This document shows, one piece after another, positions 2,795 to 30,163 of a stretch of DNA of 33,160 bases (position 1 is its first letter; every line of letters begins with the position of its first letter). Under the pieces are notes generated by a model that had not been told where the DNA came from, did not search any database, and worked only from the letters and a program-made list of their open reading frames with translations. Position numbers and translations under genes: made by a program. This DNA comes from Deltaproteobacteria bacterium (GTDB taxonomy: Bacteria; Desulfobacterota; Desulfobulbia; Desulfobulbales; SURF-16). Location of the stretch: positions 9,402 to 42,561 of the forward strand of contig JAOZOY010000020.1 in the NCBI GenBank assembly GCA_029933005.1, given 5' to 3'.

Positions 2795-2814
2795 TTTTTT
2801 AGAATGAAGAAGTA

Positions 2815-2888
2815 AGAAGTTAGAAGTGAAATGGAAAATCAAACAAAAAAACCATCCTCACCATTCTGGCTTCTCACTTCTGGCTTCT
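2815..2888. repeat. Imperfect inverted repeat between mraY and murD
   Basis: Arms of 15 nt (2815-2829 and 2874-2888) pair with two mismatches around an AT-rich loop. Each arm is built of AGAAGT-like units, and the right arm has a second TTCTGGC unit. The element fills almost the whole 97-bp gap between the genes. No T-run follows, so it is not a typical intrinsic terminator, and the operon probably continues through it. Confidence 0.7.
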
Positions 2889-2891
2889 GAT

Positions 2892-11093: not shown

Positions 11094-11195
11094 TTTCAAA
11101 CTACACTCTATAGTGTGTGTAAAAAAAGTGACAGGTACCACATGTGGTGTTTAGATAAAAAAACCACAAAGAAAAAATATTTTTTTCTTTGTGGT
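11094..11195. other. Palindrome-rich AT segment with a perfect 15-bp hairpin
   Basis: This segment between the divergent dcw and secreted-protein operons holds three symmetric elements. ACACTCTATAGTGT lies near 11104-11117. ACCACATGTGGT (11137-11148) is a perfect 12-bp palindrome. A hairpin has perfect 15-nt arms (11163-11177 and 11181-11195) and a 3-nt loop. The hairpin stem ends in an A/T run on both strands and could act as a weak bidirectional terminator, but no gene runs into it from either side, which makes a regulatory role as likely. I see no convincing coding sequence in 11,040-11,480. Confidence 0.6.
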
Positions 11196-11479: not shown

Positions 11480-11509
11480 TTGACAATCAGGCATGCTCAT
11501 TCACAATAA
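11480..11509 (+). promoter_or_regulatory. Candidate promoter for the secreted-protein operon
   Basis: A perfect TTGACA (11480-11485) is followed after 17-18 nt by an imperfect -10 (ACAATA or CAATAA). It is the only good -35 in the 100 bp before the first gene, and would leave a 5' leader of about 60 nt. The weak -10 keeps this tentative. Confidence 0.45.
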
Positions 11510-11576: not shown

Positions 11577-12833
11577 ATGCACAGACTGCTTCCTTTCATC
11601 CTGATCTTTTTCATCTCTATTTCCAATGCCTGGGCTCAGGGCCAGGAAACCGGCAGTGCGAGCAAAAGTTTTTTCGATAAATTCATGGAAACAGCCGGGC
11701 AGGTATTTGAAGAACATGCCGGAGATGTCTTTGACGAATGGCTCGGCACCTACAAAGGAAAAATCACCTCTGTCCAGCTTGTCCAGCGCCGTGGCAATGC
11801 CCTGATTCTTGATGTCAGTTATGAGGACATCAAGCGCTCCGACGGTGTCTATATTGAAGGCGACGTCCTATCAGGCGGCATGCCGCTGAACGGTTTTACA
11901 AACGATCTCATTCCGATTTCAGGACGAAAGGGCGTGATGAGGCTGACAATTCAGCGCTCGTCTGCTGCCGGTCAGATGGATGAATGGGGCCTGATAGCGG
12001 ATCCCCAGGAGTTGGATGCACTTAATTCCGATCAGATACAGTTATCCTTGGTCAGGGAAACCAATAAAGACCGCCCCTTTGGCAGTCTGACATATAATCT
12101 CCAGAAAAAATGGACGGACAGCAGCGAACCCGAACTTCCTCCCAAGACCCAGGATCAGACTGATGTGGTGGAGCTTGCCGAAGGCGAAACCATGGAAGAA
12201 TCCGGCGGCAAGGCTTCCGGAGGAACAACCATGAAACCATTTATTCCCACAGGTATGGTTCTGGCTCCGATCAAAACGGCAACTCCCACTGTTAGAAATA
12301 CAATACCCACACGCACCATGGCGCATGTTTCAGCCGCCACAACCAGCTTTAATTTTTACAAAACAGCTGCCAATGCAGACTGGAAGGATTCCCGTCATGG
12401 AAAATTAACTTTTGGAGTAAAGCATCAAGTTTCCCAGGGATTTGTGAGAACAAGAGATAAAGGCTCTCTCAGTACGGGCAACTCTGTTATTGAGATGCTG
12501 GAAACTCAACCTCCAAAATCAGCCAATAGCTGGATTGAGGGACGTTTCCCGGCAATGACCCTTGGCAGCAACGTCCATTTCAAGGCAGTTGCAGGATTTC
12601 TGAAAGGCGCCACACAGTCGGACGGAGCGCATTTCAGAGTCATTGTCGATGACGGCTCCCGTAAAACCTCGCTTATCAAACGCAAAATACGGGTCAATCG
12701 CTATATCAACCTGGATGGAGACCTCTCCCGCTGGGCAGGGAAAAAAATCAATATTATCCTGCGGGTAGACAGCGGTTCCAACAGCATTCATGATTACGCG
12801 GTATGGGTAAAACCCCGTTTAACCACGAAATAA
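11577..12833 (+). CDS. Exported two-domain protein with a carbohydrate-binding-like C-terminal domain
   Basis: A 418-aa protein, first gene of the probable secreted-protein operon. The start is fixed by AGGAGG (11563-11568) 8 nt before the ATG; the product then begins with a Sec signal peptide ending at about A-W-A-Q. Residues 25-180 form a beta-rich domain with no match I recognise. Residues 180-260 are rich in Glu, Gly, Pro and Thr and look like a linker. The last 150 residues read like a jelly-roll module: VAGFLKGATQSDGAHFRVIVDD, LDGDLSRWAGKKINIILRVD and D-Y-A-V-W-V-K-P follow the pattern of NPCBM-type carbohydrate-binding domains (extended field G-x-x-F-x-V-x-V-D, then L-x-x-x-A-G-K-x-I, then a D-x-x-x-W end). 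It has no catalytic motif and no cysteine cluster. It may bind a glycan or another envelope polymer; that is inference. Confidence 0.85.
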   Translation: MHRLLPFILIFFISISNAWAQGQETGSASKSFFDKFMETAGQVFEEHAGDVFDEWLGTYKGKITSVQLVQRRGNALILDVSYEDIKRSDGVYIEGDVLSGGMPLNGFTNDLIPISGRKGVMRLTIQRSSAAGQMDEWGLIADPQELDALNSDQIQLSLVRETNKDRPFGSLTYNLQKKWTDSSEPELPPKTQDQTDVVELAEGETMEESGGKASGGTTMKPFIPTGMVLAPIKTATPTVRNTIPTRTMAHVSAATTSFNFYKTAANADWKDSRHGKLTFGVKHQVSQGFVRTRDKGSLSTGNSVIEMLETQPPKSANSWIEGRFPAMTLGSNVHFKAVAGFLKGATQSDGAHFRVIVDDGSRKTSLIKRKIRVNRYINLDGDLSRWAGKKINIILRVDSGSNSIHDYAVWVKPRLTTK

Positions 12834-12873
12834 ATTTCAACTCAGGTGGTTCTTTTTTTGCCGAGGTTTTTTT

Positions 12874-14382
12874 ATGACAATGCGTCTTTTTTTATTTTTT
12901 CTCCTCTTAGTGCTGTCCAGCCCTCCGGCCCAGGCGGGCCAATCCGTATTGATGGATAGCGCCGTGATGCAGCGAAAAATGTCTTCAACAATTTCAGCCC
13001 AGCAGGACAGGCCGTTAAAAATTGACAAGCCGCTCATCCTCAAACCGGCTATAATTCGCACCTTCATCCCCCTGCATAAAATCCAACCCGACAAACTGGT
13101 CAAACCCGAGGGGCCTGTCATCATGCCAAGCCTGGATCTGGGTGACTGCATCACCAACAGTGATCTGCTCGACGATCTGAGCCAGGCCTGCGGCTGGAAT
13201 CCTTACATGATTTTTCAAGACAAGGCCGCGGGGCACGTCTTCTACTACCTGCCCCGGGAATTTCTCCTGCTCCGGAGCGATAACGGCTATGGACTCAGCG
13301 TCCAGTACAACACCCGGGCCGAGCCCGGACAACCGTCCGTCATGCTCACCGCCGAACTCCAGGCGCCCCATCGCAGCGGAGACGTGCAGCTGCTCAAGGC
13401 CATCATGCGGGAAGCCCTCGACCTTAAATCAAGTGACCCCCTGGAGTTGAAATCTCTCAAGGGAATCGGCGCCAGGGCTGACATGGAAGCCCTGGGCGCC
13501 GGGCTTTCCCTGCCGGCCGATCGAATCCACCTCACGACCCCGGGCGATTTCAAGCAATCATTCCGCCTCACTCTCTCCCTGACCCAGGAAGAAGTGGAAG
13601 AAATTCTGGCCCAGATTGCCAGGGAAGGTCTGGCCGGCACTCTGTACGTCAAAATCGGCGATGACGCGGTTCCCGTACCCATCCGTATCCGCTATGAACA
13701 TTTCAGCGGCAAACAGGTCGATGGTTTTGACCAATGGCTCAAAAACAGACCAACGGAAAAAATCAAAAACCTCACTGACTTCCCATTACAACTCGAATCC
13801 ATTAATGGCTACAGGATCAAAGGCGGCCACTTGGAACGTGTGGCAAAACAGCTCAAACAGACCAAGCCGATTCCTCCCGGCGGCAGCCGCTCCTTTAAAT
13901 TACCTCCGATGAAGCGGATCCTGGGCAATAATGTCGTTGTGGCCTGGCTGGGAACCTCACTTGACTCGGGATGCGCCTCATGTCTGCAAAAAATTGATCA
14001 GCAGGTAAGAAAAGGCGTGGCCCTGGCCCAGGGCAGCCGGATCAAAATTGAGGCGATTCCCACCGTCTTTGCCGAATTCGGCATCTACAAAATTGTTGTT
14101 CGTATCCGCTCCCCCTTTTTTATAGCCGGTGGAAAAACCGTCCAGGAGCGGGAAATCGAACTTACTGAAGAAACCAACGAAAGTGAAGAACTGGCCCTGT
14201 TCATACCCGGCGACCGGGGCAGCGATGCTCTCCTCTACCGCTACCAGATGAAGCTTGTCATGGAGTCGGGCGAATCCGTTCAGGAGACCGGCTGGCATGA
14301 TGGCCGTCGGTTGAGCCAGTTTTTCGGCAGCTCTCATCTTGAGAACCTGCTGCCTGATCAGGATGAGAGATTCATTGAATGA
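12874..14382 (+). CDS. Exported protein, diverged member of the Y-Y-L-P paralogous family
   Basis: A 502-aa protein with a signal peptide (MTMRLFLFFLLLVL to A-Q-A-G). After about 90 residues rich in Lys, Pro and Ile comes H-V-F-Y-Y-L-P (about residue 121), matching N-V-Y-Y-Y-L-P in three later genes. Next comes a beta-rich stretch and a segment (KQSFRLTLSLTQEEVEEIL) in the place where the paralogues have the G-A-x-L-L-x-x-S element. Near residue 366 there is a C-A-S-C pair, which could be redox-active or disulphide-forming in the periplasm. The C-terminal 110 residues are again beta-rich. A GAGG about 7 nt before the ATG serves as ribosome binding site. The gene overlaps the next by 4 bp (ATGA), so the two are probably coupled. 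I do not recognise a named family. Confidence 0.85.
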   Translation: MTMRLFLFFLLLVLSSPPAQAGQSVLMDSAVMQRKMSSTISAQQDRPLKIDKPLILKPAIIRTFIPLHKIQPDKLVKPEGPVIMPSLDLGDCITNSDLLDDLSQACGWNPYMIFQDKAAGHVFYYLPREFLLLRSDNGYGLSVQYNTRAEPGQPSVMLTAELQAPHRSGDVQLLKAIMREALDLKSSDPLELKSLKGIGARADMEALGAGLSLPADRIHLTTPGDFKQSFRLTLSLTQEEVEEILAQIAREGLAGTLYVKIGDDAVPVPIRIRYEHFSGKQVDGFDQWLKNRPTEKIKNLTDFPLQLESINGYRIKGGHLERVAKQLKQTKPIPPGGSRSFKLPPMKRILGNNVVVAWLGTSLDSGCASCLQKIDQQVRKGVALAQGSRIKIEAIPTVFAEFGIYKIVVRIRSPFFIAGGKTVQEREIELTEETNESEELALFIPGDRGSDALLYRYQMKLVMESGESVQETGWHDGRRLSQFFGSSHLENLLPDQDERFIE

Positions 14383-15389
14383 AATGGCCACTTTTACTCT
14401 TTTTTGTCCTGCTGTACTGCACTGCCAATGCAGCGCCGAATCTTGACGTTTACCGGGATATCCAGGGTATTCTGGTCTACCAGGATCATCAGCAAAAAAA
14501 TATCTGGTATCTCACACCGGCAGCTCCACAAATTGCCCGGAGCGAAGACAACACCCCAGACTACGGACTGGATGTCTTTCGCTACCATGGCCGCAAGGGT
14601 ACCGGTGACCAGGGAGCTTTCCTGGTACGCGGTATCCTGAGCGTTGCCGTTGAGAGAAAACGTCCATCCGGCGTAACCATGGCAATCCGCAAGGTTTTAG
14701 GTAACTCGGGAATAAAAAATCCCCGCCTGCGCAGCATGCCTGTTTCCGGCGCGGAAATCAAACTGCTGTTTGCAGACCAGGGAGCGTCATGGCAGCAGAA
14801 AAGCCGCTGGACCGGACGCCAGATCCTGCTGCCGCTCCCGCCCGAAATGACTGAAGCCCTGTGGGATGGTGTGGAAAAAGGCCAGACCCTGATGAGCCTT
14901 GCCGTGGAGGAACAACTCAGCGGCAGACGCCTGATCGACAAGGAATGGCAGGACATGGAAGTATCCTCATCCTGGATTCTGCCCATTGAAATGGATATGG
15001 CGGCCCATCCGACCAAATTTCGTAAAACCGATCTTGGCGGCCGCATGTCCCACGGCTATACCGGCATTGATGTGTTCTGTTTTGATTTTATAGAAGAACT
15101 GGACCAGGATCTCTACGCCAAGAAGGTCCGGGTGGCCATTCCCACCACGGGCCGGGACCTGATTGAAGAAATCACCTTCAGGGATGACGGCCAATACCGA
15201 TTCCGCCTCGATTTCAAATATGCCAAGGGTATGGATTGGCCTTACCAGGTACAAATAGTTCGGATCATGCGGGACGGAAGGCGCGAGACCACCCCCTGGA
15301 TAAAAAAACAGGGAGAAAGCATGCTTGATATCACCGCCTACCGGGAACCGGAAGAAAGCAGTGAAGAGGACATCCCCATCAGCGAATAA
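14379..15389 (+). CDS. Exported protein, short member of the Y-Y-L-P paralogous family
   Basis: A 336-aa protein with a signal peptide cleaved at about A-N-A-A. The opening mature region, VYRDIQGILVYQDHQQKNIW then Y-L-T-P-A-A-P-Q-I-A, parallels the N-terminal module of the 940- and 588-aa proteins downstream (L-Q-D-A-R-D-A-N-V-Y-Y-Y-L-P-P-A-P-R-I). The centre has QILLPLPPEMTEALWDGVEK, where the paralogues have the T-x-x-G-A-x-L-L-W-E-S element. The C-terminal 150 residues lack the second module of the larger members and end in an acidic tail. The start overlaps the preceding stop as ATGA. No cysteine motif, lipobox or catalytic signature is visible. It may be the minimal family unit. Function unknown. 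Confidence 0.84.
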   Translation: MKWPLLLFFVLLYCTANAAPNLDVYRDIQGILVYQDHQQKNIWYLTPAAPQIARSEDNTPDYGLDVFRYHGRKGTGDQGAFLVRGILSVAVERKRPSGVTMAIRKVLGNSGIKNPRLRSMPVSGAEIKLLFADQGASWQQKSRWTGRQILLPLPPEMTEALWDGVEKGQTLMSLAVEEQLSGRRLIDKEWQDMEVSSSWILPIEMDMAAHPTKFRKTDLGGRMSHGYTGIDVFCFDFIEELDQDLYAKKVRVAIPTTGRDLIEEITFRDDGQYRFRLDFKYAKGMDWPYQVQIVRIMRDGRRETTPWIKKQGESMLDITAYREPEESSEEDIPISE

Positions 15390-15411
15390 ACCTCTTGCAG
15401 GAGAGAGACAC

Positions 15412-18234
15412 ATGAAAACCATCAAAAGACCTATTTTTTATTCTTTGTGGCTGGTGATTCTGGCCTGCCTTCTGCCCTCGCCGGCCCCGGCCCAGGAAAT
15501 TAACCTGGACAAAATGGAAAAATGTGGTGATCTCCTCTGTTATCAGTCCATGGATGATTCCAATGTCTACCACTACCTGCCCGATTGCCCCCGCCTGGCT
15601 TACAAAGACGGACGACCCCAATTTTCTTTTCTTAAATATGCCCGAATCCAGGAAACCGGCGAGGCCGGTACCGGTCGCGCCCAGGGCGGCGGCATTGTCC
15701 ACTTTCTGGTGACCTATGGCGCTGACAAAAGCCGGGTTCAGGCGGCTGAAGAAGATTTGCAGAAAAATTTTCCCGATGCCCGCATTGCAGGTCCAATCAT
15801 CTACCGTAAAGGAAGCTTTGCTCTTATCACCTCTTTTCAGGAAGGGAACAAAACCACCACCCGCACAGTTGCCGTGGGCAAGGCCCCTTTGATGGAAGGC
15901 CAGAAGGCCGCCGTTTCCATGGCCCTGACCAGGGAAGGGGCTGAGTTGCTCTGGGAAAACTTCAAAACGGCCACTCCGGATATCTCCCTGGTGTTTGATA
16001 TGCAGTTTGCCGGCGTGCGGGAACCTTACGAGGCCACCCTGGAAGCTGACTGGTCACGAATCTCCAAACATGATCAGGTCAAAGCCGGAATGAAATACGC
16101 CTGGTTTGGCGCCGATGTCGACCTGCTTTTCCAAGAACTGCGCCAGGACGGCGCCATCAAAATTACCACCAAGGGCAAAAACGCCAATATGGATAAAATT
16201 CTGGAAAGCGCCCACGCCAGGCTGCTCAAGGTCATCTTTGATCCGGCTCCCATTGATGAACTGACCAGGGCGGCAGCAGAAAAGGACAGTTACAGCAATC
16301 TCAACCAGGCAGTGAAGCTGCTCAAGAATGCCGCCACATCCAGACGCAGCAAAGGCAGGAGCAGTCGGCTGCCGGATGATCCGCCATTTCTACTTGCCGG
16401 ATTCGAGACAAACCCGGCTGCCAACAGCGATAAACTCATTAAAAAATTCTCCATCCTCGACTGGATCATCAGCACGGCAAATGCGGCTGACGACTCGCAG
16501 CAGACACAGGAAGCTGTAAAACTTTTCAAAAAAGCCAACAGCCTCCGGTCAGAAAAAAAATATGCTGAGGCACTTGCCTTATACGAAAAATCAAACTCAT
16601 TATACAAAGCTGCAAAAGGGCACGACAGTCTGGGATCAGTATTCAATATTGGTTTTTGCAATTACAGGCTCGAAAACTGGGATGCTGCCATCTCCCATTT
16701 TCAAAATTTCCTCAGCCTCATTCAGCAAGATCCTGGCCATGAGCAAAGAAAGGCCCAAGCATATGCTTTTATCGGCAGTTCCTTTCAGGCCCTTGGTAAA
16801 AATGATGACGCCCTTGCTTACCTGAAAAAGGCGGAAGAAGATACATCCGGAAAAAGTGCTGACGCGCTGAATATTGTGGCAGATACACATTACAACATGG
16901 GCTCTTATGCCGAATCCGCCTTTTATTTCAAAAAGGCTCTCTCTTCAGCCCAGGCAGGAAGCATTGCTGAGAGGTATGCCAGACGATGTGCTGCCGAGGC
17001 CTCGGCAAAGGCATACAGTCATGCCAGGAAACTCGACGAAAAGGCCAGGATCTCAAAGTATGCGGTGGAAGCGACCCAAGAGGCATTGAATGCCTACACC
17101 GCTTACCAGGACAACGTGGCGCCCACAGGTCAGCGGGAAAAAGAGGTGGAAAGCCGGGTGAAGTTTCTTGCTGACAAACTGGAACAGAAAGGCGTGGCTC
17201 AAAGCGTGGCACCAGGCAAGGAGTATAAAATTACCGGCAAGACACCTTCCAAGAAGGCTGCAACGGCAAAGCCGGGCATAGCCACACCCCCATCCGCCGC
17301 TTTGAAAAAATCAGGTACAAAATCAAAATATTCCAGGAAATCACCGTCTGCCAAAGGAAAAACCGCAGCTAAATCCAAAAAACAAAAACCAAAAAGAACC
17401 CATACCACCGCAAAACGCTCCGACGGCAAACCAGGCTTTTCCCTGGTGGCTTCATACCGCATGAAACGCATCAAGCGCAGCGGCAAATTCACTTACCACA
17501 TGAATCATTACCGTACTGAAAGCCAGGCCTTTGCCATGGCTGAAAATATCGGTGATCTTTTCAGCCGCTACGGCCATGATCCCAAGGTATTCCGCGCCGT
17601 AACCATCGATGATCCGGTCTTCAAGCAGCGTGAGATCCTGGTCACCCTGGATGGACAGGACACTAACACCTTTACCAGACACCTTAATTTTGTCACCGTA
17701 CAGATGGAAAAACGTCATCAATCCGGTGACCTGACCACGGACGAGGTGATCATCACTCCGGAAAAATTCAATGCCAGCGGCAATGCCTCTATCCTGAGCT
17801 ACGGCTGGAAGGGTGACGACGACCGAACCAGGTGGCTTGACTACCGGATACAGGTCCTCTGGTCGTTTCACGGTGGCGTAGAGATTCGGCAACCATGGGC
17901 AACACGCAGCAGTGCCATTCTGGCCCTGGAACCGCCCCACCGCTACCGCAGTATCACCATTGAAGGCGACGGAGAACGATTAAAGCGGCAGGGAGTCCGT
18001 CATGCGGTGGTCACCATCACAAGCCTGATTAACGGTCAACCGGTGAGCAACCAGGTGACAATCCGCAACAGGGGAGCTGCGCCGGCCATGATACTGGAGG
18101 CGCCTGAAAGCCGGGAGGGTCCTCCGAGCGAGATTCATATTACCTGGTATCTGACAGGCGGACGGAAAATAACGGCCCCGGTAAAGCTGCTGGAGGGAGA
18201 TATTTTCTACTGGGATGAGTTGCCGGCAGGATAA
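15412..18234 (+). CDS. Large exported protein: paralogous-family modules split by a TPR block and a Lys/Ser-rich linker
   Basis: A 940-aa protein, the largest of the operon. AGGAGAGAG (15399-15407) just before the ATG decides the start and reveals a signal peptide ending at P-A-P-A-Q. Module 1 (about 30-290) has N-V-Y-H-Y-L-P-D-C-P-R-L at residue 51, a G-G-G-I-V-H-F-L-V-T-Y-G element, then G-K-A-P-L-M-E-G-Q-K-A-A-V and R-E-G-A-E-L-L-W-E. Residues about 365-560 form a TPR block of four to five repeats (KYAEALALYEKSNSLY and similar). Residues about 595-675 are a strongly basic Lys/Ser/Thr linker. Module 2 (about 676-940) has MKRIKRSGKF, then D-D-P-V-F-K-Q-R-E-I-L-V-T-L-D-G at about 735, and ends W-Y-L-T-G-G. 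Modules 1 and 2 match the 588- and 663-aa proteins with other linkers. The TPR block suggests protein binding in the periplasm; the basic linker could contact anionic polymers. Both roles are inference. Confidence 0.87.
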   Translation: MKTIKRPIFYSLWLVILACLLPSPAPAQEINLDKMEKCGDLLCYQSMDDSNVYHYLPDCPRLAYKDGRPQFSFLKYARIQETGEAGTGRAQGGGIVHFLVTYGADKSRVQAAEEDLQKNFPDARIAGPIIYRKGSFALITSFQEGNKTTTRTVAVGKAPLMEGQKAAVSMALTREGAELLWENFKTATPDISLVFDMQFAGVREPYEATLEADWSRISKHDQVKAGMKYAWFGADVDLLFQELRQDGAIKITTKGKNANMDKILESAHARLLKVIFDPAPIDELTRAAAEKDSYSNLNQAVKLLKNAATSRRSKGRSSRLPDDPPFLLAGFETNPAANSDKLIKKFSILDWIISTANAADDSQQTQEAVKLFKKANSLRSEKKYAEALALYEKSNSLYKAAKGHDSLGSVFNIGFCNYRLENWDAAISHFQNFLSLIQQDPGHEQRKAQAYAFIGSSFQALGKNDDALAYLKKAEEDTSGKSADALNIVADTHYNMGSYAESAFYFKKALSSAQAGSIAERYARRCAAEASAKAYSHARKLDEKARISKYAVEATQEALNAYTAYQDNVAPTGQREKEVESRVKFLADKLEQKGVAQSVAPGKEYKITGKTPSKKAATAKPGIATPPSAALKKSGTKSKYSRKSPSAKGKTAAKSKKQKPKRTHTTAKRSDGKPGFSLVASYRMKRIKRSGKFTYHMNHYRTESQAFAMAENIGDLFSRYGHDPKVFRAVTIDDPVFKQREILVTLDGQDTNTFTRHLNFVTVQMEKRHQSGDLTTDEVIITPEKFNASGNASILSYGWKGDDDRTRWLDYRIQVLWSFHGGVEIRQPWATRSSAILALEPPHRYRSITIEGDGERLKRQGVRHAVVTITSLINGQPVSNQVTIRNRGAAPAMILEAPESREGPPSEIHITWYLTGGRKITAPVKLLEGDIFYWDELPAG

Positions 18235-18258
18235 TGTGATTCGGGAATACGAATTAGG

Positions 18259-18291
18259 GATTTCGGAATCCAAAATCCCCAATCCGAAATC
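18259..18291. repeat. Short inverted repeat in the intergenic spacer
   Basis: GATTTCGGA (18259-18267) and TCCGAAATC (18283-18291) pair perfectly around a loop containing CCAAAATCCCC. Related units (GATTCGGGA, GAATTAGGGA) lie just upstream, so the 71-bp spacer looks assembled from one short motif. No T-run follows; readthrough into the next gene is likely. Confidence 0.6.
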
Positions 18292-18305
18292 AAAAAGGTC
18301 ATATA

Positions 18306-20072
18306 ATGAAACAAAAATACTTTTACAAAATTGTCTCTCTGTTTACGCTCATACTGGTCTGCGGCCTGTCGTCAATGGCTTTGGCCCTGGTGAATTATGA
18401 AGCCGGCCAATTGGAGTTAAACGGTGTCCTCCTTCTGCAGGATGCACGGGATGCCAATGTCTATTATTACCTGCCTCCCGCTCCCCGGATCTCAACCCGC
18501 AAGGACGGCGGCCTGGAACTTTCCGTGGTCAAGTTTATCGATCCCCAGGGGGAAACAAGCGGCGGACTGCTTCACATGCTGATCACCTTCACCCTGCCGC
18601 CGGACGAGCTTGATGCCTTGCGTGAAGCCCTTAAAAAAGAAAAACCAGGAGCCAGACTGCAGGGGCCGGTTCCCCTGCGCCAGGAAGATGAAGGCAGCTT
18701 TACTATTATCTCTGGAACCTTGTCCGATAAAGGATTTACCCGCTCTCTTATCAGCAGCGGCCGCGCTCCGGTCACCCCCGGTTCAAAAGCCGCCGTAGCC
18801 GCCACCCTGACACCCCACGGGGCCACCCTGCTCTGGGAATCCATGAGCCGCCCCACCTCTGACGTGTCCGTGGCCCTGCGCACCTATTACGAGGCAACCC
18901 TGCCATCATTTCGCGCCCGTATCCACGCTGACGTGAGCACGGTTTACAGCCATTTTTCCAGCGTATTCAACAAACAGAAATCATACACCAAGCGTCAGGT
19001 GCGCGATGTTGTCGACGAACTGGTGCGCAGCGGCGATATCACGGTGGAGGTGCTGGACCGCCTGCCGGAAGACACGGCCAACCAGGCCATGCAGTCCCTG
19101 GTGGATATGGTCACCGGTAAACTCACCGAAATCATCTTTGACACAAAAACAGGCTTTACCGCCATTCCGGAAAAAGAAAAGGGTGTGGAAAAAGGACAAA
19201 TCAAAGGCCGGCAGAAAAAAGGCTGGCTGGCCCAGCTCTTTACCAGCACCGGCAACCAGAAGTACGTTACAGACAACCAGTACGTGATCAAGAAGCGCAA
19301 GGACATCAACCGGGCCGTCTTCAGCATCAACCTCACCCGCCGCTCTGTTATCAAGGTGCCGGTGGATACTGCCGGGAACATCTCCGGGCTCTATGAGGCC
19401 TTTAAGGATGATACGCAAATGTTTCGGGTAGTGAATCTGGCCGATCCCGCCTTCCAGAAACGGGATATCTATTTCCGTATAGATGGCGACTATAGCGGGG
19501 CCTTTGAAAGTATCATGAATTTTGCCGGTGTTTCCCTGCGTAAATCCTATTCCGACCATGCCGATGCCACCGGCGAGCTGATTTTCACCCGGGAAGACAT
19601 CCACGAAGGCACAATGAGCAAATCCTGGCGCTATGCCCGCCTTGGCCAGAAAAATGACAGCTGGCTTGATTATGACTACCGAATGACCTGGAGCATCAAA
19701 GGGCAGCACCAGATCAAACAGCCGAAAGAAGAGGAGGAGTGGCTGCACAGTAGTGATCCCATTATCACCCTGGCTCCGCCTTTGCATCGTCTGGACATGG
19801 AGATCGACGCCGACCGTTTCCTCTTTGAGGATGCGGCAATCCGCAGCGCCACCCTTGAAGTGCGCTACAAAGTGTTCGGTAAAACACAGACCGAACGGCT
19901 GTCAGTGATGCGCTCAACCGATGCGGAATCAGTCAGCAACGCCGTGCTGTTTCACGACCCGGACACCAGGGTTGAATACCGGGTCAACTGGTATCCGGCC
20001 CGGGACAAACCGATCAAGGGTGACTGGCAGCAACTGGATGAATCCTATCTGGTGTTGATGCCGCCAATGTAG
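18306..20072 (+). CDS. Exported protein, two-module member of the Y-Y-L-P paralogous family
   Basis: A 588-aa protein with a signal peptide (to about S-M-A-L-A). Module 1 has N-V-Y-Y-Y-L-P-P-A-P-R-I at residue 51, the same position as in the 940-aa protein, then G-G-L-L-H-M-L-I-T-F, G-R-A-P-V-T-P-G-S-K-A-A-V, and T-P-H-G-A-T-L-L-W-E-S-M-S-R-P-T-S-D-V-S. A basic stretch of about 50 residues (EKGQIKGRQKKGWLAQLF) separates it from module 2 (about 318-588), which has INLTRRSVIKVPV, then D-P-A-F-Q-K-R-D-I-Y-F-R-I-D-G near residue 384, followed by F-E-S-I-M-N-F-A-G-V and W-L-D-Y-D-Y-R-M-T-W-S. Compared with the 940-aa paralogue it lacks the TPR block, so it shows the basic two-module plan. No enzyme motif is visible. 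AAGGT lies before the ATG. Confidence 0.87.
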   Translation: MKQKYFYKIVSLFTLILVCGLSSMALALVNYEAGQLELNGVLLLQDARDANVYYYLPPAPRISTRKDGGLELSVVKFIDPQGETSGGLLHMLITFTLPPDELDALREALKKEKPGARLQGPVPLRQEDEGSFTIISGTLSDKGFTRSLISSGRAPVTPGSKAAVAATLTPHGATLLWESMSRPTSDVSVALRTYYEATLPSFRARIHADVSTVYSHFSSVFNKQKSYTKRQVRDVVDELVRSGDITVEVLDRLPEDTANQAMQSLVDMVTGKLTEIIFDTKTGFTAIPEKEKGVEKGQIKGRQKKGWLAQLFTSTGNQKYVTDNQYVIKKRKDINRAVFSINLTRRSVIKVPVDTAGNISGLYEAFKDDTQMFRVVNLADPAFQKRDIYFRIDGDYSGAFESIMNFAGVSLRKSYSDHADATGELIFTREDIHEGTMSKSWRYARLGQKNDSWLDYDYRMTWSIKGQHQIKQPKEEEEWLHSSDPIITLAPPLHRLDMEIDADRFLFEDAAIRSATLEVRYKVFGKTQTERLSVMRSTDAESVSNAVLFHDPDTRVEYRVNWYPARDKPIKGDWQQLDESYLVLMPPM

Positions 20073-20115
20073 TTAATGCAGTTTGACATTAACCTTTTCT
20101 GTAAAGAATTTAAAA

Positions 20116-20556
20116 ATGATTAACAAAACCAGTTTTCTCCTTTTGTTGTGCTTTACTTTTGCATCCGTCTCATTTGCCCAGGAAAAAGAGGAAGTCCTCA
20201 CCTTTGCCGATCACTTGGAAAAATGCACTCCTTTTAAAAGTAAATTTCTTCATCCTTTCAGCGGTCAAAAAATGCAACGAGAAATTGTCGGCATAACCGA
20301 TAACAAATGCCTTTACACAGAGGAGATGCCGAATAACGGCAAATTAACGTGCAGATACGAAATTGAGCAACTCCCTGTCATAGCAAAATACTACCGTGAT
20401 ATTGCACTGGCCAAGTCCCATTCAACTTCTGCAAAAATCACAACTCACGGCGACAAACAAGAGGTAAAAACAACATACACCATAAACGGCAAAGAGGTGA
20501 AGAACCCGATGCAGGAATGTATGCAAAACGGAACCTGCGGCATTTCCGGATATTAG
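20116..20556 (+). CDS. Small exported cysteine-containing protein
   Basis: A 146-aa protein with a signal peptide cut at about S-F-A-Q. The mature part has five cysteines: the first in H-L-E-K-C-T-P-F, one in D-N-K-C-L-Y, one in L-T-C-R-Y, then two near the end. Disulphide bonding in the periplasm is plausible. The pattern EKCTPFKSKFLHPFSG, then N-K-C-L-Y-x-E-E-M-P-N-x-G-K-L-T-C-R-Y, recalls small conserved hypothetical proteins I associate with gammaproteobacteria, from memory only. It is unrelated in sequence to the five paralogues around it. I use the ATG at 20116, because the upstream TTG would add residues before the signal peptide; the ribosome binding site is weak. A G/C hairpin follows the stop. 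Function unknown. Confidence 0.75.
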   Translation: MINKTSFLLLLCFTFASVSFAQEKEEVLTFADHLEKCTPFKSKFLHPFSGQKMQREIVGITDNKCLYTEEMPNNGKLTCRYEIEQLPVIAKYYRDIALAKSHSTSAKITTHGDKQEVKTTYTINGKEVKNPMQECMQNGTCGISGY

Positions 20557-20576
20557 ATGAGGGGCTGAAGGACAAA

Positions 20577-20617
20577 GGTTTAAAGGGACAAAGCCCCCCC
20601 CTTTGTCCCTTTGAACC
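20577..20617. repeat. Strong hairpin after the 146-aa gene
   Basis: Arms of 17 nt (20577-20593 and 20601-20617) pair with one mismatch around a loop of seven C residues. The stem is very stable, but no T-run follows on the plus strand, so it is not a canonical terminator. It could attenuate the message or protect its 3' end ahead of the 663-aa gene. Confidence 0.7.
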
Positions 20618-20696
20618 ATCAGCACAGCCGGCCAGCTTAATAGTCTTATATCATCGAATTGATCATTATGCACCTTGACATACAGGAGGAAAAAAT

Positions 20697-22688
20697 ATGA
20701 AAAAACAATGTGTGATTGCGGGGCTCATTCTCGCCTTTTCCGGCTTGCTCGGAACAACAGCATTGGCCAAACCACGGTCAAATTTTGGTATGGCTGAGCA
20801 GTTCAAGTATGAAAAACAGTTTAAACCACAGACACTTCGTTCCTCGCATACGATTCCGTCTTCGGCAGCAGTCAAGGAGATAGGAGGTATCAGCTATGGA
20901 CACCATGTTGATCTCAAACTCAAAGACGGAATAACGGTGCGTTGCTTTCCGGCAGCAACCAAAAATCCTGAAAAGACCTCCAAAAACTACTATTACCTGC
21001 CCACCAACCCCCATGTTGCCAGGGACCCGGATGGAACACCGAAATTTTCCATGCTGCGTTTTGTTACTGACAAAACTAAAGAGGCCGGAGGTGTTGAAGG
21101 CGGAATCCTTCATTTTCTGGTGGAATACGGCTTAAGCCCGCAACAGGAGAAAGAGGCAGCAAAACTGCTTGCCAGAAAGATAAAAGGAGCCAAGCTGAAA
21201 GGGGCTGTGCAGCTTGAGTCCGGGGGGGAAGGAAACAGTTTCCACGTCGTGTCCGCCACCCTGACCGATGAAGGGTTTACCTCCACCCTGGTCACCAGCG
21301 GCAAGGCCCCGGTCATGGAAGGACAGCGGGTGGCCGTGGCAGCCCGCCTCAGCGGATACGGCGCCACCCTGTTGGCCAAGAGCATGGAGCAGCCCACCAC
21401 TGACATCTCAGTTGTTTTTGACCTGAAATACCTTGTCAAGCTGCCGGCCTATGATGTAAAGGTAATCATCGACTACGATATGTATCACCAGATGGAAAAA
21501 GAATATTCCCATGGGCGGGAAAAGAAAACAACAAAGAAACGCTACTGGAACCCGAAATGGTACAATGTTTTAAATATCAGCACCAGCAAGTCTTCCACCC
21601 TGACAGAAGAGGAACAGCAGGAATCCATTGATTTTCTGGTGGAAAACGGCGCTGTCACCTTTGACTATGTGCAGCATGTGCCTGACGCGGACAAGGAGAT
21701 TGTCGAAAGCGGCCTGTACAAACTGGTGCTTGAATCTTTTTTTGACATGCAGAAACGCTTTGGCCAGCCCTCTCCGGATGAAGTGATTGGGGAAGAGGAA
21801 GAGGGTGAATCCGCCAAAGAGATTGAAGCGGCCCGCAGAGCAGAGGCCCGCAAGATGAAAAATTACAGCTACACGGTCTTTCAGCGTAAAACCATCAAAC
21901 GCTCCGGCAAGACAACCCTGCACCTGAAAAAATCAATCGCCCGCTATGAGCATTACACCATGACCGGCAATGTCGGCACCTGGTATGAACAGTTTAAAGA
22001 CGATCCCAGACTGGTGAGCGAGGTCAATCTTGACGACCCCTTTTATCAGCGACGCGAGATGCGTTTTGTCATCGATAACGAGGCTTATGATATCTTCAGC
22101 CAGATGGTCAACTACGCCACAGTGCAGGTCCGTGTGCCGCGCAAAGGCCGACGTCCCTTTATCGACGAACTGACCATTGATCGGAAATATCTGGAACAAA
22201 GCGGCCAGACCGCCACCCTGACCTATGCCCGCATGGGTGACGACGCCCAGACCTATGATTACGCGGTGCAGTGGAGTTTACGCGGCGGCTATCTCTACCC
22301 CAAAGAGCCGCGCTGGAAAAAAGGCGAACTCATGGCCGTGACCCTGGCCGCGCCGGTGACACCCATGACCATCGAATCCGAAGCAGACCTTGATGAACTC
22401 GAAGAGCTTGGCATTGCCAGGGTCTCCGTTGAACTCAAATATTCACGCTTCGGCAAGACTTACCTGGATCAGAAAGGCCTTTCCCTTTCCCCGGGCGTGG
22501 GCGAACCCGTGGTGAACAAGGTCATTTATCATGACGCGGAAAAAGATAAAATCGCCTACAGATTAATTTATCATCACAAAAAACTGGGCAAAATCAAGGA
22601 TGACAAATGGCAAACGGTGGAAGGGGCCTACATCTACTGCTCGCCGTCGGAAATGCTTTTAAATAAAGTGCGGGATCTTGTATTATAA
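20697..22688 (+). CDS. Exported protein, two-module family member with an acidic linker
   Basis: A 663-aa protein; ACAGGAGG about 8 nt before the ATG fixes the start. A signal peptide (to about T-A-L-A) is followed by some 60 extra residues, then module 1 with N-Y-Y-Y-L-P-T-N-P-H-V-A at residue 97, GGVEGGILHFLVEYGLSP, G-K-A-P-V-M-E-G-Q-R-V-A-V, and G-A-T-L-L-A-K-S-M-E-Q-P-T-T-D-I-S. The linker (about 354-385) is acidic (GEEEEGESAKEIEAARRAEA), unlike the basic linkers of the other two. Module 2 follows from about 388: QRKTIKRSGKTTLHLKK, then D-D-P-F-Y-Q-R-R-E-M-R-F-V-I-D-N at about 451 and VNYATVQVRV. Identity to the 588- and 940-aa proteins is evident by eye across both modules. Opposite linker charges within one family could let members associate; that is speculation. 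Confidence 0.87.
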   Translation: MKKQCVIAGLILAFSGLLGTTALAKPRSNFGMAEQFKYEKQFKPQTLRSSHTIPSSAAVKEIGGISYGHHVDLKLKDGITVRCFPAATKNPEKTSKNYYYLPTNPHVARDPDGTPKFSMLRFVTDKTKEAGGVEGGILHFLVEYGLSPQQEKEAAKLLARKIKGAKLKGAVQLESGGEGNSFHVVSATLTDEGFTSTLVTSGKAPVMEGQRVAVAARLSGYGATLLAKSMEQPTTDISVVFDLKYLVKLPAYDVKVIIDYDMYHQMEKEYSHGREKKTTKKRYWNPKWYNVLNISTSKSSTLTEEEQQESIDFLVENGAVTFDYVQHVPDADKEIVESGLYKLVLESFFDMQKRFGQPSPDEVIGEEEEGESAKEIEAARRAEARKMKNYSYTVFQRKTIKRSGKTTLHLKKSIARYEHYTMTGNVGTWYEQFKDDPRLVSEVNLDDPFYQRREMRFVIDNEAYDIFSQMVNYATVQVRVPRKGRRPFIDELTIDRKYLEQSGQTATLTYARMGDDAQTYDYAVQWSLRGGYLYPKEPRWKKGELMAVTLAAPVTPMTIESEADLDELEELGIARVSVELKYSRFGKTYLDQKGLSLSPGVGEPVVNKVIYHDAEKDKIAYRLIYHHKKLGKIKDDKWQTVEGAYIYCSPSEMLLNKVRDLVL

Positions 22689-22697
22689 AAAGTAACT

Positions 22698-22839
22698 ATT
22701 CGGCTTGTGTGAAAAAGTTTCGAAAAACTCGGTCTGTAAATGTTTGGATAGTGCCCCAAGTTCGTTCAAGTCGCCTTGCGAGCTATATTAGTCATATGTG
22801 AGTAAGACGAATCGGACGAAATTGGGGTGCTAGCCGAAT
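22698..22839. repeat. Intergenic repeat, copy 2 (long imperfect palindrome)
   Basis: ATTCGGCT (22698-22705) and AGCCGAAT (22832-22839) form the ends, and AGTGCCCCAA (22750-22759) pairs with TTGGGGTGCT (22822-22831) with a G-T step. Between lie further partly paired segments, so the whole could fold into one long, broken stem. It shares motif order with the element near 11,241-11,384. The 209-bp spacer (22689-22897) holds nothing else that I can identify. Confidence 0.6.
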
Positions 22840-22897
22840 ATTTACTATAAAAACCGAAAAAACCATACCATTTCAAGATATTACAAAAGGATTTGCT

Positions 22898-23746
22898 ATG
22901 AAAAATATCAAAACATTCACTGGATTTTTTCCCCTGCTGATTGCTCTTTCCTTCGCTGCCTTCTGCTCCACCGCACAGGCTCAATATAACAACCAGGATG
23001 AGCAACTCTACAATGACGAGAACCCTTACGAAACAGAGGACACTATTCCCGGAGAATATATCGCTCAACACCCGGACGACGCGCCGACCTTTACCGAGGA
23101 TGATTTCCAGCCGGACATCATTGATCCTGCGTATGAAGATGTGGATAACGAACTCCTGCAGGATCTAAAAGATGACATGGAGCTGCCGCCGCCTGTTGAC
23201 GAGTCACCAGAAGATGAAGAGCAGGATTCTCCCCTTATCGATGATACGCTGCCCCCACCAGACAGTGACAACCTGCCCCTTGAAAATCCCGGCTTCGATC
23301 TTCCGCCGGACATGGTGCTTGAAGACAGCGAGTCGAATAACTCCAATGAGGATAGCCCGACTTTTGATCTTCCTTCATCAGAAATCACTGACATGGTAAG
23401 AGGAACGCCATCCGAACTGAGCACTGAACTCTCCTCCTTACAGACACCCCCCGCCCAATGCGCCCAGGCAGCCGGCCATGTAATTATTTTACTGGAGAGC
23501 AAGGGAATTCATAGCGGAGTAACTTACTTACAGCCGGAGGCACGGGTGGACTTCCAAAATCAGTCCAATGTGACTCACAATGTCACTATTTGGCCGCAGG
23601 ATTTCTTCATGAGTAATAACTTTACCATAACCGGCCAGTCCATTGTGTCGAGGGTTGCTGGTTCCCCCGCCCAGGTTACAGTCGGCAGAATCGAGGTTAG
23701 CACCGGAAATATCCAGACAAAGCATTTTATGGTTATCTGCCCTTGA
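22898..23746 (+). CDS. Exported acidic protein with a cupredoxin-like C-terminal domain
   Basis: A 282-aa protein and the last gene before the terminator. The signal peptide ends at about T-A-Q-A-Q. Residues 30-175 are a long, very acidic, proline-rich low-complexity region (Asp/Glu runs, P-P-P-x-D repeats) that is probably disordered. The C-terminal 95 residues are hydrophobic and beta-rich: GVTYLQPEARVDFQNQSNVT, then H-N-V-T-I-W-P, ending F-M-V-I-C-P. A residue pattern of x-F-x-N-x-S-x-x-x-H-N-V is typical of plastocyanin-like (cupredoxin) domains, where this His binds copper. The Cys near the end could be a second ligand, but the usual following His and Met are missing, so copper binding is doubtful. 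An acidic tether carrying a small beta-domain suggests an adaptor or metal buffer. AAGGA precedes the ATG. No paralogy to the neighbouring family is visible. Confidence 0.82.
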   Translation: MKNIKTFTGFFPLLIALSFAAFCSTAQAQYNNQDEQLYNDENPYETEDTIPGEYIAQHPDDAPTFTEDDFQPDIIDPAYEDVDNELLQDLKDDMELPPPVDESPEDEEQDSPLIDDTLPPPDSDNLPLENPGFDLPPDMVLEDSESNNSNEDSPTFDLPSSEITDMVRGTPSELSTELSSLQTPPAQCAQAAGHVIILLESKGIHSGVTYLQPEARVDFQNQSNVTHNVTIWPQDFFMSNNFTITGQSIVSRVAGSPAQVTVGRIEVSTGNIQTKHFMVICP

Positions 23747-23777
23747 TTGCAGATAAAAGAACAATAAATAAAGGACT

Positions 23778-23817
23778 AAAAAAGAGGTTACGGATTAATT
23801 CCGTAGCCTCTTTTTTA
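23778..23817 (+). terminator. Rho-independent terminator ending the secreted-protein operon
   Basis: A stem of AAAGAGGTTACGGA against TCCGTAGCCTCTTT (one G-U pair) with loop TTAAT is preceded by an A-run and followed by a run of six T. It lies about 30 nt after the stop of the 282-aa gene. The A-run before the stem would let it act on the other strand too. Confidence 0.92.
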
Positions 23818-24070: not shown

Positions 24071-25087
24071 ATGTTTGGCACATATCGAACCCTTCTAGCA
24101 CTTATGGTTGTTGCATTACATCTTGGTGGTATACCTATAATTGGAGCATACGCTGTATTCGGTTTTTATTCTCTCAGTGGATATTTGATGACTCTCATCA
24201 TGCAAACTAATTATGGCTACACCTTGTCGGGCGTATCTAAATACGCAGCAAATCGATTTTTAAGAATCTATCCAATTTATTGGGTTTCTATAGCTTTTTC
24301 CGCAGTATTAGTGCTCTATTTTGGAGAACAATTTTCTTCTGATTATCATAGTTCAATATATTTCCCTCAAAACATTTCTGAATTTCTTAAAAATTTATTT
24401 TTATTCTTCCCGTATCGGGAATCGCCTCGTTTAACTCCACCCGCTTGGGCGCTTACCGTCGAAATTTTCTTTTATATTTTAATAGGCCTCGGAATTTCAA
24501 GAAACAAAAAGATAGTTCTGTTCTGGCTTTTCGTCAGCGTAACATATCATTTAGCAGCAATACGTCTTGGATTTAGTTGGGAATCTAGATATTTTACATT
24601 TCTTGCCGCTTCATTACCTTTTGCTACCGGAGCGTTTATCTATCACTACAAAAACAAACTGCTGGAGTATGTTAGCCACGTGAAGGGAAAAGCTGGGGAA
24701 CTTTTACCATTTATAATTATTTTCTTTATATTACTAAACTGGTTGGTTGGCCATTTAACCGGAAAATCTGAAGGTTTATTTTTTTACAGTAATTACGTTT
24801 TATGTGCTCTTATGGTACTTGTTCTTTCAGAGCGAAAATCCTTACCGTATATATCCAAAAAATTTGATAAATGGATGGGGGATTTCAGCTATCCAATGTA
24901 CCTTATTCATTATCAAATCGGCATGATTGTTATTGTTCTTTTAGACATGATTGGCCTAACATACAAACGACCGGATATCATACTCATGCTCATCTCAATA
25001 CCTTTTGTATTCCTTTTATCCTATGTATTTACAGTGATAATTGAAAAACCAATTGAGTTAATACGCACAAAAGTAAGAAAAAGCTAA
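24071..25087 (+). CDS. Acyltransferase family 3 (OafA/YrhL-like) membrane protein
   Basis: A 338-aa polytopic membrane protein with about ten hydrophobic segments. Family 3 acyltransferases move acyl groups (often acetyl) onto sugars of O-antigen, exopolysaccharide or peptidoglycan across the inner membrane. Visible signatures: TLLALMVVALHLGG with the conserved His, F-G-F-Y-S-L-S-G-Y-L-M, N-R-F-L-R-I-Y-P-I-Y-W with the conserved Arg, P-P-A-W-A-L-T-V-E-I-F-F-Y, and the late F-S-Y-P-M-Y-L-I-H-Y-Q motif. The gene is clearly AT-richer than everything around it, which suggests horizontal acquisition; many such genes sit in polysaccharide islands, but none is seen here. The ATG has no good ribosome binding site, whereas a strong one lies 90 nt upstream in another frame. 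The substrate cannot be predicted. Confidence 0.9.
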   Translation: MFGTYRTLLALMVVALHLGGIPIIGAYAVFGFYSLSGYLMTLIMQTNYGYTLSGVSKYAANRFLRIYPIYWVSIAFSAVLVLYFGEQFSSDYHSSIYFPQNISEFLKNLFLFFPYRESPRLTPPAWALTVEIFFYILIGLGISRNKKIVLFWLFVSVTYHLAAIRLGFSWESRYFTFLAASLPFATGAFIYHYKNKLLEYVSHVKGKAGELLPFIIIFFILLNWLVGHLTGKSEGLFFYSNYVLCALMVLVLSERKSLPYISKKFDKWMGDFSYPMYLIHYQIGMIVIVLLDMIGLTYKRPDIILMLISIPFVFLLSYVFTVIIEKPIELIRTKVRKS

Positions 25088-25399: not shown

Positions 25400-25828
25400 A
25401 TGAAGAGACTCAAAACAGCAGCCTTGTTGATCGGCTTTGCCCTGGTAACTTCACCGGCCTGGGCCACTGATTATGACAGTTACTCGATGGATGAGTTAAA
25501 TGAGATGCGCGGTAGCATGCAGAATGCCTCCGAGCAGGACCGCAATGCTTATCGCCATGAATGGCAGAACAGGATACGTGAATTGCCTCCTGAAGACCGT
25601 GATCAGTACCAAAATCGTTCCCGAAAACATTCCGAAGGAGCCACAGGTGATGGAACCGGCCGGGGGCAAGGGAAGCGGAAGAGACATGGTGAAGACCGGA
25701 AAGACGGCAATGCCTATGGCTATGGACACGGCAAATCCCAGGGATCAGCCGACAGTTATGGCAGCGGCATGGGCAAAGGATCTGGACATGGCAGAGGACA
25801 TGGCGGAGGTGGCGGCCGGGGCCACTAA
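25400..25828 (+). CDS. Small exported Gly/His-rich protein
   Basis: A 142-aa protein with AAGGAG about 8 nt before the ATG and a signal peptide cut at about S-P-A-W-A. The next 55 residues form a helical segment, YSMDELNEMRGSMQNASEQD followed by R-N-A-Y-R-H-E-W-Q-N-R, reminiscent of the M-S-x-E-E-L-x-x-x-R-G pattern in DUF1104-type periplasmic proteins. The remaining 70 residues are low-complexity, dominated by Gly, Lys, Arg, His and Ser (HGRGHGGGGGRGH at the end). The His/Gly tail could bind metal ions or an anionic surface; this is inference. The gene stands alone, converging on the LOG-family gene across a shared terminator. Confidence 0.8.
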   Translation: MKRLKTAALLIGFALVTSPAWATDYDSYSMDELNEMRGSMQNASEQDRNAYRHEWQNRIRELPPEDRDQYQNRSRKHSEGATGDGTGRGQGKRKRHGEDRKDGNAYGYGHGKSQGSADSYGSGMGKGSGHGRGHGGGGGRGH

Positions 25829-28733: not shown

Positions 28734-30163
28734 GAAATTGCCACCTCAAATGCCTGCAGAAGGCAATGGGATAATTCCACCACATCATGATCCCCTACCG
28801 TGCGCATATCCAGCATGAAGCGATCCTCCTCGATACGGCCGATCACCGGCAGCGGCGCGCTGCGTAACCGTCTTTCCAGCTCATTGACCGAAAAATCCAA
28901 TGGTTTGAGAATAACCGCCCGGCTAGGTAGACCATGCTCAGGCATGGCACCACCGCCGACCCTTGATTCAATATTTAAAGTCGAGACCTCGCATTTTCCG
29001 CTTAACTCTTTTTTAATCCGTCTCAACAGCCGGGCACCGCGTCTTTTGATCACCTCGGGATCCATGGTCATCATAGCCAGGGTGGGAATTTTTTCCAGGG
29101 CCTGTTCCTCGTCAAAATAAAGATGCAAAATGGCTTCAAGCCCGGCCAGGGTGAATTTGTCAATGCGCAGGGCCCGGTTCAGAGGATTTTTCTTGATCCG
29201 GTCAATAATCTCCTTTTTCCCCAGGATCAAACCGGCCTGGGGGCCGCCGAGCAGCTTATCGCCACTGAAGGTCACCACATCGACTCCAGCCCGGACGACC
29301 TCGCCCACGGTGGGCTCTTTGGGCAGACCAAAAGGGGAAAGATCAATAAGGCAGCCACTGCCCAGATCCTCCATCACCAGCAGATCATGTTTTTGGGCCA
29401 GCTTGACCATTTCAGTCAGATCCACCTCCGAGGTAAAGCCGATCACCTTGAAATTACTGGTGTGCACCTTGAGCAGCATGGCGGTTTCTCCAGTGATGGC
29501 CTGCTCATAATCATGAAGATGGGTGCGATTGGTGGCGCCCACCTCAACCATACAGGCGCCGCTCTTGGCCATAACGGCCGGAATGCGAAATGATCCACCG
29601 ATTTCAACCAGCTGTCCCCTGGAGACCACCACCTCCCTGCCCTTGGCCAGGGTTTCCAGAACCAGCAGCACGGCAGCGGCGTTGTTGTTGACCACCAGGG
29701 CCGCCTCGGCGCCGGTCAAATCACAGAGCAAATTCTCCACCAGGCTGTAACGACTGCCCCGTCTGCCGCTGGCGAGATCAAACTCCAGGTTGGAGTAGCG
29801 GGCCCCGACCTTCATCAGGCTTTCTATGGCACCTTCCGGCAGAATCGAGCGGCCGAGATTGGTATGAACCACTACTCCGGTACCATTGATCACGGTACGA
29901 AAATTCGGCTGCAGACGATGGGCCAGACGCTCTGCAAACTTTGGCAGCAGACTTTCTTTTGCCAGGTCATCTTTTGCATAAGCTTTCCCGGAAAGAATCG
30001 CCTTTCTTTCATCATCAAGCAGTCGGCGGATCTCGATTTTTACCAGCCGTTGCGGCGCGTCAGCATCTTTGCCGATCCAGTCCAGAAATGCATCCACTTT
30101 CGGGATTGCCCGCAACAGATCCTTTACCGACTGGGAAGGAACTATTTTTTTTTCTCCGGCCAT
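28730..30163 (-). CDS. selA: SelA, L-seryl-tRNA(Sec) selenium transferase
   Basis: SelA is a PLP enzyme that turns seryl-tRNA(Sec) into selenocysteyl-tRNA(Sec) using selenophosphate. The 477-aa length and order are typical: N-terminal tRNA-binding helices (VKDLLRAIPKVDAFLDWIG), RTVINGTGVVVHTNLGRS, the LVVNNNAAAVLLVLETLAKG segment, VGATNRTHLHDYEQAI, and the PLP-lysine site F-S-G-D-K-L-L-G-G-P-Q-A-G. The N-G-T-G-V-x-x-H-T-N-L-G-R motif is diagnostic of true SelA. Its presence implies that the organism makes selenoproteins; selB, selC and selD are not in the window. No strong ribosome binding site is visible. It heads a three-gene operon, divergent from the helicase. Confidence 0.97.
   Translation of the reverse strand: MAGEKKIVPSQSVKDLLRAIPKVDAFLDWIGKDADAPQRLVKIEIRRLLDDERKAILSGKAYAKDDLAKESLLPKFAERLAHRLQPNFRTVINGTGVVVHTNLGRSILPEGAIESLMKVGARYSNLEFDLASGRRGSRYSLVENLLCDLTGAEAALVVNNNAAAVLLVLETLAKGREVVVSRGQLVEIGGSFRIPAVMAKSGACMVEVGATNRTHLHDYEQAITGETAMLLKVHTSNFKVIGFTSEVDLTEMVKLAQKHDLLVMEDLGSGCLIDLSPFGLPKEPTVGEVVRAGVDVVTFSGDKLLGGPQAGLILGKKEIIDRIKKNPLNRALRIDKFTLAGLEAILHLYFDEEQALEKIPTLAMMTMDPEVIKRRGARLLRRIKKELSGKCEVSTLNIESRVGGGAMPEHGLPSRAVILKPLDFSVNELERRLRSAPLPVIGRIEEDRFMLDMRTVGDHDVVELSHCLLQAFEVAIS

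Follow-up and report, generated by a model that had tools for sequence, protein, structure and literature searches.

The window analysed here is a stretch of 33,160 nucleotides from a Deltaproteobacteria bacterium, and the element under study is a series of eight open reading frames, g1 to g8, which follow one another on the plus strand at positions 11577-23746, between mraZ (minus strand, start 10988) and an acyltransferase-3 gene. The window genome (G000) is a 3.07-Mb draft, 96.5% complete, in which the window lies on contig C92, and its nearest relative among the genomes compared is the Desulfobulbaceae metagenome-assembled genome AUK272. A preliminary description of this DNA presented the eight genes as a single tightly spaced unit of exported proteins, with a promoter in front and a terminator behind, and these physical features are borne out. 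N-terminal hydropathy gives a hydrophobic leader on all eight proteins, which have neither a lipobox nor any membrane segment beyond the leader. The distances between successive genes are 40, -4 (an ATGA overlap), 22, 71, 43, 140 and 209 bp. The best candidate promoter upstream of g1 in a consensus scan is TTGACA-16-CACAAT at 11480-11507 on the plus strand, which matches at 10 of 12 positions; a Shine-Dalgarno-like AGGAGG lies 5' of g1, and a strong intrinsic terminator, an 18-bp stem followed by T's, is predicted on the plus strand at 23777-23817, 3' of g8. What is not sustained is the extent of the unit, since the conserved set comprises six genes: g6 recurs only in near relatives, and g8, among 97 genomes, is confined to that of the window. 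This exported core, g1-g2-g3-g4-g5-g7 in that order, is defined in the present analysis as class A.

Module architecture of the exported proteins

The paralogy that had been proposed for the largest proteins is far above chance, with blastp E-values of 3e-70 between g5 and g7, about 1e-29 between g4 and g5, 3e-21 between g4 and g7, and 1e-5 between g3 and g4. An N-terminal module of about 240 amino acids (aa), referred to below as the N-module, is common to g3, g4, g5 and g7, and g2 perhaps has a short form of about 70 residues; the C-terminal half consists of an immunoglobulin (Ig)-like repeat of about 90 aa, which an iterated domain search finds twice in each of g4, g5 and g7 and once in each of g3 and g2. 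The preliminary description had assigned an NVYYYLP signature to five proteins, and the shared N-module behind this claim is present in g3, g4, g5 and g7, but the exact motif occurs only in g5 (the versions elsewhere are NVYHYLP in g4, KNYYYLP in g7, IWYLTP in g3 and VFYYLP in g2) and the match of g2 is weak. The C-terminal module that had been assigned to the three largest proteins exists, but is really two copies of the repeat, one copy of which is also found in g3 and in g2. A reversed-sequence control for the repeat gave 0 matches, and a search of 265 neighbouring proteins gave one near-match outside the family, at E about 0.1, itself in one of the leaderless arrays discussed below. On these sequence comparisons, five of the six core proteins probably share the two modules.

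The first core gene, g1 (11577-12833, 418 aa; this and all following gene and domain coordinates of the operon are on the plus strand), is unrelated in sequence to the paralogues, and no relation to any other operon protein appears on sequence comparison. Its C-terminal region (12576-12824) is a sub-threshold match to Pfam NPCBM, and may be an NPCBM-like beta-sandwich with a putative role in glycan binding: the last ~83 residues align to the end of the NPCBM model, only the final ~60% of which is covered, and 4 of 7 g1 orthologues match at E<=1 (best E 2e-4). In another genome, G783, the C-terminal region of g1 (model positions 206-419) occurs at 1723-3033 of locus L114 behind CGDGVVDDG-type cysteine-rich repeats; the sequences suggest that this region is a portable extracellular domain. 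The product of g2 (12874-14382, 502 aa), which has orthologues in class A loci, contains a CxxC that is invariant among them, a possible truncated N-module with VFYYLP (13195-13413; hhalign 64%, E 6.5e-5 over 71 columns), and a single C-terminal repeat (14038-14298; iterated hidden Markov model (HMM) E 5.7e-7); its membership in the family rests more on the repeat than on the weak N-module match. The ATGA overlap joins g2 to g3 (14379-15389, 336 aa), which has an N-module (14442-15074; hhalign 98.2%, E 2.8e-14) and a single repeat (15099-15317; E 4.6e-15).

The longest product is that of g4 (15412-18234, 940 aa), with an N-module at 15502-16239 (E 9e-98 against the A1 profile, in which g4 is itself a row, and blastp E 2e-29 to g5) and repeats at 17632-17922 (E 3e-22) and 17944-18204 (E 8.5e-22). 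The linker between N-module and repeats is variable: in the window and its relatives it holds a lineage-specific TPR insertion (16645-16950; Pfam TPR_12, E 2e-13, 50.7 bits, above the cut-off), which is not present in distant g4 orthologues, and in G481 and G501 it is Cys-rich. The earlier inventory of features, correct in outline, overlooked these TPRs. The best conserved of the core genes, g5 (18306-20072, 588 aa), has an N-module at 18393-19115, identified by blastp and profile comparison, and repeats at 19467-19736 (E 1e-23) and 19791-20051 (E 1e-29), the second with a local predicted local distance difference test (pLDDT) score of about 80-89 in the model. The last core gene, g7 (20697-22688, 663 aa), has an N-module at 20970-21725 (A1 profile E 1e-82, g7 being itself a row of A1, and blastp to g5) and repeats at 22056-22328 (E 2e-20) and 22362-22634 (E 6e-24). 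Outside the core are the accessory g6 (20116-20556, with the start better set at 20116; 146 aa, exported, Cys-containing), which occupies the interval between g5 and g7 in G000, G006 and G078 only, and the orphan g8 (22898-23746; 282 aa, exported, acidic), which is probably co-transcribed, has no homologue in the 96 other genomes, and is not found 3' of g7 in G078.

The preliminary description knew of no named system with this content and saw no enzyme motif, and library searches agree: beyond the TPRs of g4 and the NPCBM match of g1, no family in Pfam, NCBIfam, PHROG, PADLOC or the PDB covers the N-module or the repeat, and alignment-based searches were likewise negative. PADLOC has no match to g2, g4, g5 or g7, which were the proteins scanned; Pfam finds no STAND, MoxR or GTPase NTPase in g1-g8; the library searches give no enzyme family in the operon proteins; and no EAD-fused effector or peptidase, of the kind present in the leaderless relative L031, is matched in the window operon. 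The proteins are thus not separate known families by the profile searches that had been set beforehand as a test. They could still represent an ordinary known family too diverged for the libraries used, given that the searches covered only HMM libraries, the PDB and poor models, but alignment-based searches failed too, and we regard this explanation as improbable.

Structure prediction gives a full-length AlphaFold model of g5 with pLDDT 63 and a predicted template-modelling score (pTM) of 0.39, and a model of the N-module alone with pLDDT 63 and pTM 0.44. The C-terminal repeats are strand-rich and predicted to be all-beta, with local pLDDT of about 75-89 over the final 100 residues and no global fold match. 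In their predicted all-beta tandem repeats of about 90 aa they are like Ig-like and fibronectin type III (FnIII) extracellular repeat proteins; unlike them they have no sequence-family match, and model confidence is too low to name the fold. In a Foldseek comparison with the PDB, the repeat region resembles Ig, FnIII, pilin and BACUNI_00621 domains only weakly; for the N-module the PDB yields nothing at E 0.001. In the Foldseek viral library, an uncharacterised Medusavirus stheno protein, A0A7S7YF07, is matched with probability 1.00 and E 7e-6 at 17% identity over 271 columns; its TM-score is only 0.20-0.26, and it is an unverified lead only. A phage origin of the operon was considered and rejected, IMG/VR scans and INPHARED tblastn being empty.

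The weak Ig, FnIII and pilin matches, and the NPCBM-like end of g1 with its cysteine-rich extracellular-type context in G783, speak for a surface adhesin or matrix system, in which the proteins would exit the periplasm and form cell-cell or cell-substrate attachments through adhesive Ig-like repeats and g1. The conserved set, however, includes no sorting, anchor or secretion partner, and its conserved lengths and tandem paralogues are unlike those of typical variable adhesins. The Pel biofilm trait is known from the sulfate-reducing partners of anaerobic methanotrophic archaea (PMC10553843), and a link to the Pel system of these bacteria was rejected, PelG being absent from 50/50 genomes, 16 of them carriers of the operon. 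An adhesin system is on balance unlikely.

Distribution and inheritance of the six-gene core

The distribution of the core was determined in about 1,000 Desulfobacterota genomes, comprising samples of the window's order, of the phylum, of the order of G372 and of the class of G398. The exported set is found in 16 genomes that represent 11 genera and 9 families (G000, G001, G006, G078, G372, G485, G481, G501, G563, G606, G677, G761, G808, G812, G834 and G841). The full ordered core lies on one contig in the same orientation in 10 of these (the window, G372, G485, G501, G481, G677, G606, G808, G834 and G812), and the remaining 6 have the core in pieces, at contig ends or with decayed genes. The set is spread over three contigs in G563, and G810, beyond the 16, retains fragments only. 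In G761 the operon is decaying, because g3 and g5 are truncated and a transposase gene sits between the truncated g5 and g7; this gene, at 13726-14946 of locus L103, is of the insertion sequence (IS) DDE type.

The unrelated gene g1 follows the paralogues closely. It is present in 16/16 operon genomes and not in G398, G576, G847 or G810, and in a 291-genome sample the full-length gene occurs in 9/9 exported-operon genomes versus 0/282 others, the only other match being that of G783, to the C-terminal region alone. A signal-peptide-like leader, judged by hydropathy with no trained predictor, is found on all six core proteins of the window and on their orthologues in nearly every copy examined, and the gene junctions across operon loci are frequently of a few bases or overlapping. 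The spread is patchy (4/243 genomes of the window's order carry the operon), and the flanking genes differ among genera, so that the six-gene set is self-contained. A scan for the gene set in other genomes had been set beforehand as a test of the assembly; homologues are not scattered singly, and the six core genes travel in fixed order. That these genes are inherited and lost as one unit is well supported.

In a tree of the N-module with 59 rows, the sequences of g3, g4, g5 and g7 fall into one supported clade per gene, and therefore the duplications are older than the spread; g4, g5 and g7 jointly form a fork with support 94/94. The pairwise identities of the six core genes correlate at 0.85-0.98 across loci. 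These observations bear on the reading in which the paralogues are parallel, independent binders or scavengers of related ligands that share one operon and form no joint complex. Each paralogue has indeed evolved separately for a long time, and the linkers and insertions differ, as in the TPRs of some g4 orthologues and the Cys-rich segments of others. Interchangeable binders, however, should tend to disappear or multiply one gene at a time, while all six genes, including the unrelated g1, are kept together in order, which makes independent binders a rather unlikely account, if one still to be reckoned with.

Conservation of g5 is high: its identity is 88/87/73/72% in G006/G078/G372/G485, versus 78/70/60/57% for MraY, and in these four genomes it is also above SelA, though in G481 and G501 it is not clearly above either of the two. 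Horizontal transfer plus loss is the likely history of the operon; strong constraint may instead be the cause of the g5 conservation, and on these data it is inseparable from transfer. Composition gives no foreign signal, the operon having 51% G+C and the adjacent dcw genes 50%.

Among the surroundings of the operon in the window, the AT-rich gap (38% G+C) between mraZ and g1 contains, at 11163-11195, an inverted repeat of 15 bp accompanied by a T tract, terminator-like on the minus strand. The acyltransferase-3 gene (24071-25087) is probably foreign, with 35% G+C amid a region of about 50%, and it is followed at 25400-25828 by the gene for an exported Gly/His-rich protein of 142 aa with a weak, under-cut-off likeness to Metal_resist. 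In the dcw cluster, murD and murG adjoin at 1237-1382 without ftsW in between; the sole FtsW/RodA/SpoVE-family gene of the window genome is on another contig (G000:C109), and at 96.5% completeness a second copy may be absent from the assembly only. A selA-like gene lies at 28730-30163, and the match of its G501 orthologue contains one in-frame TGA.

Leaderless relatives beside STAND NTPases and trypsins

The same N-module and repeat also occur without leaders, in four arrays defined here as class B: on plasmids of Paracoccus sp. SMMA_5_TC (pNSM5TCa) and Pararhizobium qamdonense, and in two Desulfobacterota, G398 and G576. Like the exported operon, the arrays of Paracoccus and G576 combine the two modules in several tandem paralogues; unlike it, the leaderless arrays have no signal peptides and no g1, their proteins are longer with a varying number of repeats (one to five copies), and the arrays of Paracoccus and G576 have NTPase or protease neighbours. 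The leaderless arrays are themselves without a name. Kaur et al. 2020 (PMC7159879) count EAD1, trypsin and STAND NTPases among the components of conflict systems in bacteria, and in Paracoccus (locus L031) genes for an EAD1-trypsin, an EAD1-NTPase-like protein and a STAND NTPase lie directly upstream of the array. The Paracoccus plasmid operon (L031, 4963-20654), in which the array consists of four N-module paralogues followed by a PLD-annotated gene, looks from its gene content like an undescribed conflict system. In G576 (L109, 436-15659) the N-module paralogues come directly after an nSTAND1 NTPase (E 2e-95) that also carries pentapeptide repeats, a pairing independent of that in Paracoccus, and in G398 (L062) one array protein has a C-terminal trypsin domain.

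This context invites the reading that the operon serves a conflict or defence system as its exported arm, which would sense or block an invader such as a phage or a contact toxin at the envelope. Component types of conflict systems do adjoin the leaderless arrays, and the patchy distribution of the operon, its decay in G761 and its remnants in G810 are in keeping with such a role. The exported operon, however, is without NTPase, protease or effector, and without any defining part of the EAD conflict systems (PMC7159879); it has no PADLOC match; and its sequences are slow-evolving rather than diversifying, with g5 identities of 61-89% across families. An exported defence arm is accordingly improbable.

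A candidate recognition complex at the envelope

The reading that we tentatively favour, with a confidence somewhat short of even, is that the six exported proteins assemble into a single hetero-oligomeric complex, either periplasmic or on the cell surface, which serves as a recognition or attachment platform. The complex is proposed because the six exported genes, overlapping or tightly spaced and five of them probably sharing parts, are obligatorily co-inherited. In such a complex, the paralogues g3, g4, g5, g7 and probably a reduced g2, each with an N-terminal module and then one or two Ig-like repeats, would pack side by side via the N-module; g1 would contribute a different, NPCBM-like and putatively sugar-binding end; and the repeats and g1 would be displayed for ligand binding, so that the whole would act in recognition or attachment. 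By analogy with the leaderless relatives, and with the parts that resemble NPCBM and Ig domains, binding or recognition is the most likely job; the adjacency of those relatives to STAND NTPases and trypsins hints that recognition was the ancestral role. Physical assembly, ligand binding and location are what we infer for the operon proteins, and a multi-subunit assembly is a plausible best guess.

Several observations weigh against this complex. Correlated identities and synteny prove co-inheritance, not binding, and the two single-chain models, both of low confidence, are poor guides that give no evidence of subunit contacts. The NPCBM/NEW2 family (PF08305) aligns with the C-terminal 83 aa of the window g1 at 16.0 bits, below the Pfam gathering cut-off of 23.9, and the exported copies have no membrane anchor, lipobox or transmembrane segment. 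The link between leaderless arrays and NTPases is suggestive: of the four arrays, two adjoin NTPase genes, one includes a protein fused to a trypsin domain, and that of Pararhizobium has no NTPase or protease nearby. The STAND/trypsin context may be uninformative on the exported branch.

A broader and unlikely version of the proposal is that the proteins represent a new class of recognition complexes, modular in build, that operates in two compartments, with cytosolic arrays that would feed the STAND NTPases and proteases of bacterial conflict systems, and an NTPase-free exported version of six subunits that would have the identical recognition task beyond the inner membrane. The N-module, the repeat and the operon are new as a sequence system, and their function may prove to be of a known kind. 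They amount to about 10 kb of coding sequence in six co-inherited genes, present in 16 genomes of 9 families and without a family name in the libraries searched. Through the leaderless arrays the modules are also linked to STAND NTPases, which offers a testable route to function in laboratory strains, and if the proposed complex is real, it would be an undescribed envelope machine of the relatives of sulfate reducers.

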